Below, piece after piece: positions 30,044 through 41,906 of a stretch of 41,906 nt of DNA. The notes beneath the pieces are model-generated. The model saw only the letters and a program-made list of their open reading frames with translations, was not told the DNA's origin and ran no database searches. Position numbers and translations under genes: made by a program. This DNA is from a virus. The DNA lies in IMG/VR virus record IMGVR_UViG_3300043410_000788, positions 1 through 41,906 of that record, one strand, 5' to 3'. Each line of letters begins with the position of its first letter. Position 1 is the first letter of the stretch.

Positions 30044-30146
30044 GAGAAATCAACCACCCAATCACCAGAAAAATGCCGATACCAATAAAAAACGCGCCAA
30101 ACGTGAAAGGCGAAAGGCCCATCATAATGTCGTAATCGTTAAACAT
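30033..30146 (-). CDS. Single-span membrane peptide (37 aa)
   Basis: MFNDYDIMMGLSPF leads into a strong hydrophobic helix (about residues 12-33) and ends SRGK. It overlaps the HTH gene stop by eight bases and the next gene start by 11 bases, filling the junction. GGAG lies upstream, at a long spacing. Possible roles are in lysis or superinfection exclusion; none is shown. Confidence 0.55.
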   Translation of the reverse strand: MFNDYDIMMGLSPFTFGAFFIGIGIFLVIGWLISRGK

Positions 30147-32581: not shown

Positions 32582-32832
32582 TGAGCACTTACTACAACGC
32601 CAAAGAGACGCTATGCGTGGATGTAGACAACGCCCTACAGGGCTGGCGCGTACGTGTTAGCACCTACGACACCGCAAACGACTGGCGCGAACGTGCCAAC
32701 ACGTACATGATCGCGGAGAACATGCGGGAAGCCGTAACGGACGCTTTGCTAGCCGCCGGGATCCCGTGGGAAGACACAGAAGCCCTATGCGACACATGGG
32801 GCATCGAATACCCCGAAGACGACGAAGACTAG
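32581..32832 (+). CDS. Small acidic protein, unknown (83 aa)
   Basis: Contains YDTANDWRERANTYMIAENM, similar in style to its neighbour, and a very acidic C-terminus (PEDDED). No domain recognised. It ends 16 bp before an intrinsic terminator. Confidence 0.62.
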   Translation: MSTYYNAKETLCVDVDNALQGWRVRVSTYDTANDWRERANTYMIAENMREAVTDALLAAGIPWEDTEALCDTWGIEYPEDDED

Positions 32833-32958: not shown

Positions 32959-33042
32959 GGCTAGTTGATCCGTCGTTAGCTTGCCGGAAAAAGTGCCCGG
33001 CTTTTGTGTTGTGAATTGCTCAGACAGATCACCGGCTTTTTT
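32959..33042 (+). ncRNA. Candidate short RNA or leader with competing hairpins
   Basis: From the predicted start near 32959, GCCGG (32983-32987) can pair with CCGGC at 32997-33001, followed by TTTTG. It can also pair with CCGGC at 33032-33036, followed by six T. The two pairings exclude each other, as in attenuators. Stems are short (5 bp) and the call is speculative. Confidence 0.3.
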
Positions 33043-33050
33043 GTCAGTAC

Positions 33051-33085
33051 CCCCGATCCGATCCCCCCGATCCCCCGATCAGATC
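33051..33085. repeat. GATC iteron cluster
   Basis: Five GATC tetramers lie in 35 bases, three of them in C-rich CCCCGATC units and two in CGATCCGATC and CAGATCGC. Short iterons beside inverted repeats are typical of initiator-binding sites, but the C-rich units could be low-complexity drift. Confidence 0.5.
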
Positions 33086-33096
33086 GCTAGCCGCTT

Positions 33097-33160
33097 GCCG
33101 GGTGCCCCGGTGAGTGAGACGCGCCCGTTAGGGCAAGCGTCGAACGCGCGGGCACCGGGC
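33097..33160. other. Nested GC-rich fold
   Basis: GCCGGGTGCCC (33097-33107) pairs with GGGCACCGGGC (33150-33160) with one mismatch. Inside, GACGC-GCCC-GTTA-GGGC-AA-GCGTC (33118-33141) forms a 9-bp hairpin with a two-base bulge. It could be a cruciform, an origin element or a structured RNA. It is followed by ATAAAAAAAG, so it is not a terminator on the plus strand. Confidence 0.5.
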
Positions 33161-33197
33161 ATAAAAAAAGACGCTCACGCGCCTTGATCTCTCTCTT

Positions 33198-33241
33198 ATA
33201 TTGTTTGATACCGTCTCTAGGGTGACGGTATCAAACAATAT
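33198..33241. repeat. 18-bp perfect inverted repeat
   Basis: ATATTGTTTGATACCGTC (33198-33215) and its exact complement (33224-33241) flank an 8-base spacer. It opens an AT-rich tract and shares ATATTGTTT with 33334-33342. Candidate operator pair or initiator site. Confidence 0.75.
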
Positions 33242-33257
33242 TTATAAGGGCAAACGC

Positions 33258-33380
33258 ATGAAAAACAATATTGTCGAGATCCCCGCTACTGCCCTACTGC
33301 CAGGGCAAGAAAATATTTTTTACTTACTTTGGAATATTGTTTACACGTTTCGCAATATATGTGATACCTTTATCACGTGA
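33258..33380 (+). CDS. Possible 40-aa peptide in the control region
   Basis: MKNNIVEIPATALLPGQENI is followed by an aromatic-rich half (FYLLWNIVYTF) with one Cys. AAGGG lies seven to eight bases before ATG. The DNA is far more AT-rich than neighbouring genes and overlaps the next promoter and repeats, so it may be a leader peptide or chance frame. Confidence 0.4.
   Translation: MKNNIVEIPATALLPGQENIFYLLWNIVYTFRNICDTFIT
33340..33376 (+). promoter_or_regulatory. Candidate promoter with operator over the -10
   Basis: TTTACA (33340-33345), 17 bases, then TGT-GATACC (33363-33368), an extended -10. GTGATA-CCTT-TATCAC (33361-33376) is a 6-bp inverted repeat that covers it, and TCACGTGA follows directly. 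It would drive the long operon from 33450 to 39318. Confidence 0.5.
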
Positions 33381-33449
33381 TCCTTTTTAGGATCCAAGAA
33401 TTCCCGGCTAGGACGACCGGGATAACCGACAAAAAGATAGGCACCGACA

Positions 33450-33821
33450 ATGAACACTCAGGATCTCATTCACTCAGTCTCATTCGAGCTCGAAGACAAT
33501 GGCATGGATACCGACCGCTACGGCTGGGTACACAACGGCTACACTGCCACGCTCTCACGTGGCAACGTAACACTCGATGTTTTGTACCGTCAGGGCACCG
33601 CGCACACTAGTGCCCCGGATCTCGAAGACGTAGTGCGCGCCATGGTTGCTGATCGAGACGCTTTCATGAGCGCGTCAGACGCTGACGAATTCGCTAGCAT
33701 GTTTGGCTACGCTGACGGTACGGACGTTTACAACGCATGCGCTGAAAACGCCGACAAGCTAGCCGCACTTTACGGCGAGGATCTCCCCGCTGTAGTTGCC
33801 TACTTGACTGAAACGGAGTAA
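33450..33821 (+). CDS. Acidic early protein, unknown (123 aa)
   Basis: The C-terminal half (FASMFGYADGTDVYNACAENADKL) has an FGYxD...xY.AC....KL pattern that I have seen in small phage proteins without a known role. Strongly acidic overall. GATAGG lies eight bases before ATG, in the ACCGACA spacer that recurs in this operon. Confidence 0.65.
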   Translation: MNTQDLIHSVSFELEDNGMDTDRYGWVHNGYTATLSRGNVTLDVLYRQGTAHTSAPDLEDVVRAMVADRDAFMSASDADEFASMFGYADGTDVYNACAENADKLAALYGEDLPAVVAYLTETE

Positions 33822-33980: not shown

Positions 33981-34010
33981 CCGACAAACAAACAGATAGG
34001 AACCGACACA

Positions 34011-34613
34011 ATGAACACTGTAACCATTACCCCCGCAACACTCAGCTCGATCGCTTCACTGGCACCATTCACCGATAGCCGGGCGATACCGGCAAGTATC
34101 GGCGGGATCCGCGTAGTTGTCGATCCCGTACGGATCACCGCGTACGCTACCGATCGCTACCGGGTGATCGAAGTCTCGACTGAACACTACGACAGTAGCG
34201 CGGGCACGTTCGAAGTAACCTTGCCTACTAAGCCGCTCATTGAATTCTCGAAGTCGTCGAAGATCAAAGGACGTGAGCTTTTCAATTCGATCACGTTGTC
34301 AGTGACTGACGATACCGTGACAATGAGTAACGCTGACAATGGCAGCTCGATCACTACAGCTTTAGTTGTAGGCAACTACCCGCCGCTCACTAAGCTGTTT
34401 GATCGCCCGGCGGGTGACACTGGCATGATCGCTATCAAGCCTAGTTTTCTGGCGGATCTCACCAAGGTAGTAGATCCTCACGGTAACGCGCTCAAAGAAT
34501 TCTGGACTTTTGAATTCGCGGGCGACAACGGAGCTGTATTGCTCACGCCTACTACTGCCCTCACCACGGGCGACACTGTACGCGCCATGGTACAGCCTAA
34601 GCGCGTAGGCTAA
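34011..34613 (+). CDS. Minimal DnaN-like sliding clamp (200 aa)
   Basis: Residues 45-55 (AYATDRYRVIEV) and 120-130 (VGNYPPLTKLF) match two hallmark segments of bacterial beta clamps (the TD-R-R strand and the YP-x-x linker). KPSFLADLTKVV (about 142-153) is the start of the next domain. The length is enough for two clamp domains, not three, so a trimer would be needed for a six-domain ring. It could tether the family A polymerase. No clamp loader was seen; the host's may serve. AGGAA precedes ATG. Confidence 0.7.
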   Translation: MNTVTITPATLSSIASLAPFTDSRAIPASIGGIRVVVDPVRITAYATDRYRVIEVSTEHYDSSAGTFEVTLPTKPLIEFSKSSKIKGRELFNSITLSVTDDTVTMSNADNGSSITTALVVGNYPPLTKLFDRPAGDTGMIAIKPSFLADLTKVVDPHGNALKEFWTFEFAGDNGAVLLTPTTALTTGDTVRAMVQPKRVG

Positions 34614-36567: not shown

Positions 36568-36776
36568 GCAGCTACCGAGATCCCGCTAACGAGTACGACG
36601 TAGAGCTTTACGCCGATATCTCGGACGCATGTAGCGGGGCTAAGTGCGGGCTGGAAGCGGACTTCCGGGACGCTTTTCTGATAGGTGATCAATACTTGGT
36701 CGCTTATGTATGGACTTGTCCTAATTGTCAGCATGAGAATTACTTTGAAGCTGACACCGACAAGTATCTCGACTGA
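36564..36776 (+). CDS. Small zinc-binding protein (70 aa)
   Basis: C23 and C28, with CPNCQHEN (C52, C55), suggest a zinc ribbon. An acidic N-terminus and FEADTDKYLD end. It starts at ATGA with the membrane-protein gene and overlaps the helicase ATG by one base. Confidence 0.65.
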   Translation: MSSYRDPANEYDVELYADISDACSGAKCGLEADFRDAFLIGDQYLVAYVWTCPNCQHENYFEADTDKYLD

Positions 36777-40962: not shown

Positions 40963-41860
40963 GCTCGACACGCTCATCAGCCGCATGGCTGACCTTGAGC
41001 ACCAGACCGTAGACAAGAACTTCATGGGCATGCTGTACGGCCCCCCCGGTGTAGGCAAGACCACACTTGCGATGGGGCTCGCACACAAGCTCGCAGGTGC
41101 CAAGGGCAAGGTACTCTACCTTGACTCCGCCGATGGCTGGGTATCGCTGGAGAACATCCCCGCCCTCATGCACAATGTCGTACGCATCCCGTTCGAGGAG
41201 TACGGCGACCTGCCAACCCTTGCTGCTGCCCTGCGTGACAAGAAGCGAGCAGACATGCTGAAGGGCGTGAACGTCATCGTCGTAGACGAGCTGTCGTCCA
41301 TCGCCAATGACGTACTCGACCGCGTACTGCGCGATCGCACCGGCACCAAAGACGACGAGATCCCTGATGTCGTAGCTGAGTGGTCTGACTACTACCCGCA
41401 GAAGGAGCTCATCCGTAAGGCTGTCATACAGCTGCACGAGGTACCCAACCTGCACGTCATTCTCGTAGCTCACGCTAAAGAGAAGATTGACCACCGCAAG
41501 GTGAAGATCACCAAGCCTGACTTCCCTGACAAACTGCTCGGTGAACTCCAGAAGCTTATGCACCTCACCGCTTACTGCACCGCTGAAACATCCATGCGAG
41601 CAGGAGAAGTTATCTACACCCGACAGGTGCAGAGCCAGCCGTCCGCACTGATCGAGGCAAAGTCTCGTATTGGCGGACTCGCATACAAGGCTGAGTACCC
41701 TGAGTTTGTAGCCGCTGTCGCTGGCTGGGTAGCTGGCGACCACATGGCTAAAGATCTTGTCAAGCCCGAAGTCACCGACCTCGTGCCTGACGAGCTTCCA
41801 ACCGACGGGATCCCTGTCGCGGAAGAAATCGATGATGAACCCATCATCATTACCGAATAA
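40955..41860 (+). CDS. Sak4-like RecA-fold recombinase (AAA_24)
   Basis: A 301-aa ATPase. GPPGVGKTT (29-37) is Walker A and VNVIVVDE (about 104-111) Walker B. VILVAHAKE (about 170-178) is the sensor-like segment of RecA-fold proteins. Sak4 proteins anneal single strands with a partner SSB. The neighbours fit: a Cas4-like nuclease before it (8-nt overlap) and SSB after it. The acidic C-terminus may control DNA binding. Confidence 0.83.
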   Translation: MTKLDTLISRMADLEHQTVDKNFMGMLYGPPGVGKTTLAMGLAHKLAGAKGKVLYLDSADGWVSLENIPALMHNVVRIPFEEYGDLPTLAAALRDKKRADMLKGVNVIVVDELSSIANDVLDRVLRDRTGTKDDEIPDVVAEWSDYYPQKELIRKAVIQLHEVPNLHVILVAHAKEKIDHRKVKITKPDFPDKLLGELQKLMHLTAYCTAETSMRAGEVIYTRQVQSQPSALIEAKSRIGGLAYKAEYPEFVAAVAGWVAGDHMAKDLVKPEVTDLVPDELPTDGIPVAEEIDDEPIIITE

Positions 41861-41906
41861 GAAAAAGAAACCAGGAGAAAATTAAAATGGCTGGATTGAT
41901 CGAAGA
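41746..41906. repeat. Terminal overlap, right copy
   Basis: Matches 1-161 except C at 41872 against A at 127. The difference is in the SSB ribosome site: CCAGGAG here and CAAGGAG at the left end. The copy spans the end of the Sak4 gene and the first codons of SSB. Confidence 0.9.
41887..41906 (+). CDS. ssb: SSB gene, first codons only (copy of the 142 gene)
   Basis: The first 20 bases of the SSB gene, cut by the contig end. It is identical to 142-161, where the gene is complete. Confidence 0.85.

Follow-up and report, generated by a model that had tools for sequence, protein, structure and literature searches.

A palindrome of conserved symmetry and changing sequence over a predicted leftward promoter in an actinophage-type genome

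Introduction

To our knowledge, the control regions of actinophages are poorly understood, and in several families conserved inverted repeats lie over promoters with a partner that is not known. The viral DNA analysed here (IMG/VR record IMGVR_UViG_3300043410_000788; the whole stretch of 41,906 nucleotides is called the window) has a long palindrome between its small early genes and a replication operon. An earlier note, made from the letters of the DNA, had placed this palindrome in a control region with operators and had proposed a replication origin, an early-to-middle switch or both. We asked what kind of element the palindrome is: a site for a protein, a structure formed by RNA or DNA, or a part of an origin.

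Genome organisation and relatives

The last 161 bases of the window (41746-41906) repeat the first 161 (1-161) with one difference (99.4% identity); it is therefore probably a complete genome, circularly permuted or terminally redundant, and it is apparently of the actinophage type. The leftward genes at 5.4-31.2 kb encode a P22-like portal, an SU10-like capsid and a terminase-like protein. The rightward genes, which run from 31.4 kb through the window end and on to 5 kb, encode a clamp-like protein, an SNF2 helicase, an RNase T-like exonuclease, a PD-(D/E)XK nuclease, a Sak4-like ATPase, primase-like and DnaB-like proteins and a family A DNA polymerase. The large ORFs that were scanned gave no integrase match, and neither Rfam families nor tRNAs were found. 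The clamp-like gene (34011-34613) encodes only 200 amino acids that weakly match one clamp domain region; L111 (see below) encodes a relative (29%).

No public phage matched the window in DNA similarity. The nearest named phage by the helicase was Microbacterium phage Shocker (47% SNF2 identity), and close relatives by the same protein (75-85%) were three IMG/VR contigs, 3300048625_000197 (L112), 3300044568_001844 (L111) and 3300043408_000022 (L113). The tract was compared in these four genomes, from which alone the region is known. Queries with the clamp, the Sak4-like ATPase, a small left-arm protein, the helix-turn-helix proteins and SNF2 added no genome with the tract; the early region of Shocker had no stem of at least 14 bp, and Jasmine and DS1 held nothing recognisably equivalent. 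A search of viral contigs with the exact 15-mer TTGTTTGATACCGTC returned 106 scattered single matches and was uninformative.

As had been proposed, the tract separates the small rightward genes, which end at 32832, from the clamp/SNF2 operon, where the clamp gene at 34011 and the SNF2 helicase gene at 36776 follow the first gene (Table 1). The ORFs 32981-33187 and 33201-33380 and a leftward ORF starting ATGCCC were considered as genes; they had no syntenic counterpart in the relatives and were regarded as non-coding.

Table 1 Coordinates of the tract features and of the GGWARCAAGTGG copies; promoters, operator-like sites and the terminator are predictions
Feature	Position	Strand	Sequence and remarks
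Terminator-like hairpin	33168..33185	-	T-run follows, to about 33163; predicted end of P_L RNA
Palindrome, left arm	33198..33215		ATATTGTTTGATACCGTC; differing counterparts in relatives
Palindrome, spacer	33216..33223		8 nt (4-5 nt in relatives); predicted leftward start 33218 inside
Palindrome, right arm	33224..33241		contains leftward -10
P_L -10	33225..33230	-	TACCGT after TGA; in right arm
P_L -35	33248..33253	-	TTGCCC; outside arm
Distal operator-like site	33263..33276		core ACAATATTGT; about 12 bp upstream of P_L -35
Proximal operator-like site	33333..33343		AATATTGTTT; overlaps P_R -35
P_R -35	33340..33345	+	TTTACA (TTGACA in L112 and L113)
P_R extended -10	33362..33370	+	TGA-TACCTT (TGCTAGACT in L112, TGGTACACT in L111); inside GTGATACCTTTATCAC
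First gene of P_R operon	33450..33821	+	123 aa, PHROG 4273
GGWARCAAGTGG, window	31295, 32181, 32907	+	
GGWARCAAGTGG, L115	3036, 4107, 4439		
GGWARCAAGTGG, L128	6502, 5643, 4817	-	
GGWARCAAGTGG, L129	7325, 6648	-	

The palindrome and its counterparts

The 18-bp perfect inverted repeat at 33198-33241 was found as described before, with arms that are fully complementary. It spans 44 bp around a dyad centre at 33219.5. A window of this composition is expected to hold about 8e-6 perfect 18-bp stems with a short spacer, and perfect stems in five mononucleotide shuffles reached 9-10 bp at most. No inverted repeat with a short spacer is longer in the window, and the counterpart of the palindrome ranks top in each relative. 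These counterparts lie at the same locus, with terminators on one side and the opening gene of the replication operon on the other, at 4721-4765 in L112 (20 bp, two mismatches), 6935-6979 in L111 (20 bp, one mismatch) and 5666-5707 in L113 (19 bp, perfect).

When the four stems were aligned from the base, at least two different pairs were found at 17 of the 18 positions, and all but 3 of the 77 pairs were Watson-Crick. Since pairing was held by compensatory change while 17 of 18 positions varied, we conclude that the palindrome is kept by selection on its symmetry. Conservation in relatives had been named as a check on the region: the inverted repeat, the site pairs described below and their arrangement were kept, whereas the sequence of the palindrome was changed.

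Pairing that is held at nearly all 18-20 positions despite sequence change also speaks for a hairpin selected as a nucleic-acid structure, which could be an RNA stem-loop (a processing site, a stabiliser, a put-like element or an insulating terminator) or a DNA cruciform. On the minus strand the folds are strong (z -6.7 to -10), and of the three imperfect pairs two become G-U there. This explanation is rather unlikely, although it has to be taken seriously: the stem has no T-run after it in either direction, terminators precede the tract for any rightward read-through and the start of the best leftward promoter falls within the loop, which would leave an RNA with one arm only; the mismatches themselves are accounted for by its -10 box (next section). 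Intrinsic terminators have a G+C-rich stem directly followed by a T-run. The palindrome has an AT-rich base and was absent from the terminator list on both strands. The put-type antitermination RNA of HK022 forms stem-loops in the nascent transcript just downstream of the early promoter; here the start of the leftward promoter is predicted inside the loop.

Predicted leftward promoter

The predicted leftward promoter, P_L, reads through the palindrome. Its -35 box is TTGCCC in the window and in L111, TTGACA in L112 and TTTCCC in L113, and its -10 box (TAnnnT) is TACCGT in the window and in L112, TATGCT in L111 and TACCCT in L113. Both boxes are exactly 17 nt apart in all four genomes, despite a one-base shift of the stem register between them, and an A and then a G are found 7 and 8 nt past the -10 in each. 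The aligned promoter scored 30, which none of 3000 simulations reached when the flanks were shuffled and the arms were shuffled yet still palindromic (maximum 22; this null ignores shared ancestry). A generic promoter scan of the window gave no matches because the hexamers of the tract match the E. coli consensus poorly. We also considered a leftward RNA that begins with a hairpin and has a -10 TATAAA at the stem base; this was dropped because it would put the start inside the stem and because TTGCCC-17-TACCGT fits all four genomes and accounts for the mismatches.

All three stem mismatches, two in L112 and one in L111, fall on T1 or T6 of the P_L -10. Each time the T is retained on the leftward strand and lost in the other arm, and for L112 alone the chance that both mismatches hit these two positions is 1 in 190. 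Mismatches confined to the T's of the -10, with the leftward strand spared, argue that the constraint acts on the DNA as a promoter. Judged from these alignments, the leftward -10 is under selection as a DNA feature and takes precedence over the symmetry, and its retention where promoter and dyad conflict shows that both are selected. The two can thus be separated by comparison: where they conflict, the -10 wins.

Since the predicted start of P_L lies near the dyad centre, the RNA would carry one arm only. It is predicted to be a non-coding RNA of about 56 nt that ends at the T-run terminator; no conserved ORF was found. A minus-strand terminator is also present in L112 (4704-4685) and L113 has a GC-rich hairpin at this position; the terminator scan was passed by the window and L112 only, L111 being without a T-run. 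If such an RNA starts at the dyad centre, it could pair with the template arm (left) and with the opposite strand of the promoter arm (right), and the symmetry could then be selected for an R-loop that primes replication or acts as a switch on itself. We regard this as very improbable; if true, pairing with both arms would explain a symmetry that is conserved without its sequence.

Predicted rightward promoter and operator-like sites

A second predicted promoter, P_R, points to the clamp/SNF2 operon and would drive it. The sequence GTGATA-CCTT-TATCAC, which had been proposed to cover a -10, is present at 33361-33376, and the extended -10 of P_R falls inside it. The window has TTTACA-19-TGATACCTT with the hexamer TACCTT after TGA, L112 has TTGACA-19-TAGACT after TGC and L113 has TTGACA-16-TATTGT; in L111 TGGTACACT is found without a clear -35. 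TGATACC, which was reported as common to the large repeat and the candidate -10, occurs six times in the window, with three of these copies in the tract; the sharing is explained by the extended -10 (TGnTAnnnT), of which it is a part in both promoters. A short hairpin is seen at 33377-33395 (GATCC-TTTTTA-GGATC), where the P_R transcript is predicted to begin, and the relatives have different short hairpins there.

The direct copy ATATTGTTT at 33334-33342 and the palindrome ACAATATTGT at 33265-33274 were both recovered, and the family of related sites to which they had been assigned is real: ATATTGT occurs five times in the 41.9 kb of the window, always within 33198-33340. Each genome has a pair of such sites. 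One, the proximal copy, either adjoins the P_R -35 or overlaps it; the other, the distal copy, is a short way upstream of the P_L -35. Their spacing is 66 bp in the window, 67 bp in L112, 58/69 bp in L111 and 66 bp in L113. The pair sequence is ATATTGT in the window and L112, ATATGTGCACA in L111 and AACTGTWTTTCAATACT in L113. The motifs are confined to the tract (ATATTGT 5/5 in the window and 3/3 in L112, ATATGTG 4/4 in L111, CAATACT 2/2 in L113), and the repeat score was higher than in all 40 shuffles for L111 and L113 and higher than in 37 of 40 for the window and L112. The pairs suggest a single regulator that would act at both promoters and whose specificity changed between the lineages. 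A control region with a family of operator-like sites, as the earlier note had it, is borne out by an arrangement that is conserved in the three relatives.

In the window, each arm of the palindrome has ATATTGTTT as its outer 9 nt, identical to the other tract sites, as if the palindrome and the ATATTGTTT sites were operators of one and the same regulator. We think this improbable, because the arms of L111 and L113 are without the operator sequence of their genome and those of L112 are only loosely alike.

The tract was correctly described as AT-rich: no other 200 bp of the window are richer in AT, and the same holds for the L112 and L113 sequence examined. Together with the clustered repeats and the short terminated RNA predicted beside them, this would fit a replication origin with the sites as iterons, the AT-rich stretch as an unwinding element, and synthesis primed by either the P_L RNA or the palindrome. 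The gene order would fit as well, with clamp and SNF2 downstream and, beyond them on the same strand, the genes for primase, helicase and polymerase. At a bidirectional origin the GC skew should change its sign or have its minimum. To the left and to the right of the tract the skew is negative, with no change of sign in between, and the cumulative curve reaches its minimum at 35.5 kb (35549), although the gene orientation confounds the skew. The repeats are only two to five and overlap the -35 boxes, the AT-richest part of L111 is not at the tract, and AT-richness is equally expected of strong promoters. The proposal of an origin was thus not supported, and we consider it quite unlikely.

Candidate binding proteins

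Two proteins, named by their positions 30139 and 35892, were considered as regulators. The recognition helix of the 30139 protein (FAKQT) is invariant in the four genomes, and the protein is disfavoured at the tract sites because its helix stays the same while the sites change. The helix of the 35892 protein varies (SPQAIRQAL, SRQAVRHAL, SHNSVRVAL, SYEAVRQAI); since it varies as the tract sites change, 35892 is weakly favoured as the candidate for the operator-like sites. The structure model of 30139 is confident and all-helical with an XRE-like N-terminal part, and comparison of its whole chain with structures gave no significant match. For 35892 a low-confidence model shows an N-terminal winged helix of the MarR/ArsR/Z-alpha type.

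An invariant motif, GGWARCAAGTGG, was observed in 2-3 copies per genome, in intergenic DNA close to the early genes and oriented like the rightward genes (Table 1). In four cases an extended -10 such as TGGTAMGCTWAT follows about 45-50 bp downstream, and a degenerate form of the motif, GGAATCAAATGGAC, is found in Microbacterium phage Shocker. The motif is possibly an activator site with 30139 as the candidate protein. The case therefore makes a prediction for the two helix-turn-helix proteins: 35892 should go with the operators, on 33263-33276 and 33333-33343, and 30139 should be found on GGWARCAAGTGG.

Model of the control region

The reading that we prefer, with about an even chance of being right, is an early transcription control region in which the palindrome is an operator at the DNA level. 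Two divergent promoters of the host type would lie back to back with about 100 bp between them, P_R leading into the clamp/SNF2 replication operon and P_L leftward through the palindrome into the terminator, which would yield the short non-coding RNA. One regulator with a lineage-specific sequence may bind the two operators beside the -35 boxes, 58-69 bp apart, and control both promoters, perhaps via looping. The palindrome would be a second site, over the -10 and the start point of P_L (about -23 to +21), and most likely an operator through which P_L is blocked or timed by a multimeric protein. Binding to DNA is preferred because the promoter constraint is at the DNA level and the start sits inside the palindrome. 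Against this model, arms of 18-20 bp with nearly full symmetry are longer than most operators need, and the main rival is therefore a structural role, as an RNA hairpin in read-through or as a cruciform.

Comparison with known systems

The lambda-type switch is a divergent pair of phage promoters with paired operators. The tract resembles it in that its predicted promoters diverge and that operator-like sites recur beside their -35 boxes at a helical spacing, but differs in that no integrase match was found among the large ORFs scanned, no repressor gene lies beside the operators and the leftward product is predicted to be a short terminated RNA. The QacR operator IR1 is a long palindrome of 36 bp over the transcription start that is bound by two dimers. 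The palindrome here likewise overlaps a predicted start; unlike IR1 it has 44 bp, and we identified no QacR/TetR-like protein.

The ESAS of cluster K mycobacteriophages is a 17-bp inverted repeat with a spacer of mostly 4-13 bp over a SigA-like promoter with 17-18 bp spacing; its consensus differs between subclusters, it has no known regulator and several copies with imperfect arms are found per genome before genes with a 13-bp SAS (PMC3203893, PMC11373665). The element described here agrees in its repeat (18 bp with an 8-nt spacer in the window, 18-20 bp with 4-5 nt in the relatives) in a sequence that differs between relatives, and in its putative promoter, which overlaps the repeat and has a spacing of 17 nt. 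It differs in geometry: the ESAS of Adephagia and TM4 have their -35 within the left arm and a dyad that precedes the start by about 16 nt, whereas here the -35 is outside the arm, the -10 in the right arm and the dyad at about -1 to -4. It is also present in a single copy, has a terminator rather than a gene downstream, and its arms are near-perfect. The palindrome thus works like an ESAS, yet by the tests made it is not one; the ESAS is the closest described element.

The 18-bp inverted repeats of Microbacterium cluster EG, with the consensus GATCAACCNNGGTTGATC, and the 17-bp repeats of cluster O mycobacteriophages are intergenic, occur in 8-31 copies and have a total length of 17-18 bp (PMC7302621, PMC6439249). 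They are, like the palindrome, short intergenic actinophage dyads without a known binding protein, but here one 44-bp element is found whose sequence is unconserved. The palindrome is ordinary in kind and unusual in its evolutionary signature, and the tract offers a compact case in which the operator and palindrome sequences changed between relatives and the arrangement did not.

Further elements near the tract

A repeated start-associated sequence (ACCGACA...GATAGG.ACCGACA..ATGAACACT) was observed before two genes of the operon, at 33429-33458 and 33988-34019. Just left of the tract, a strongly folded element is found at 33096-33161 in the window and 4620-4681 in L112 (plus-strand z -3.2 and -2.3). 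Its unpaired stretches are conserved (CCGGTGAGYGA and a GTTA loop) and its outer stem varies but stays paired, and we regard it as a candidate structured RNA.
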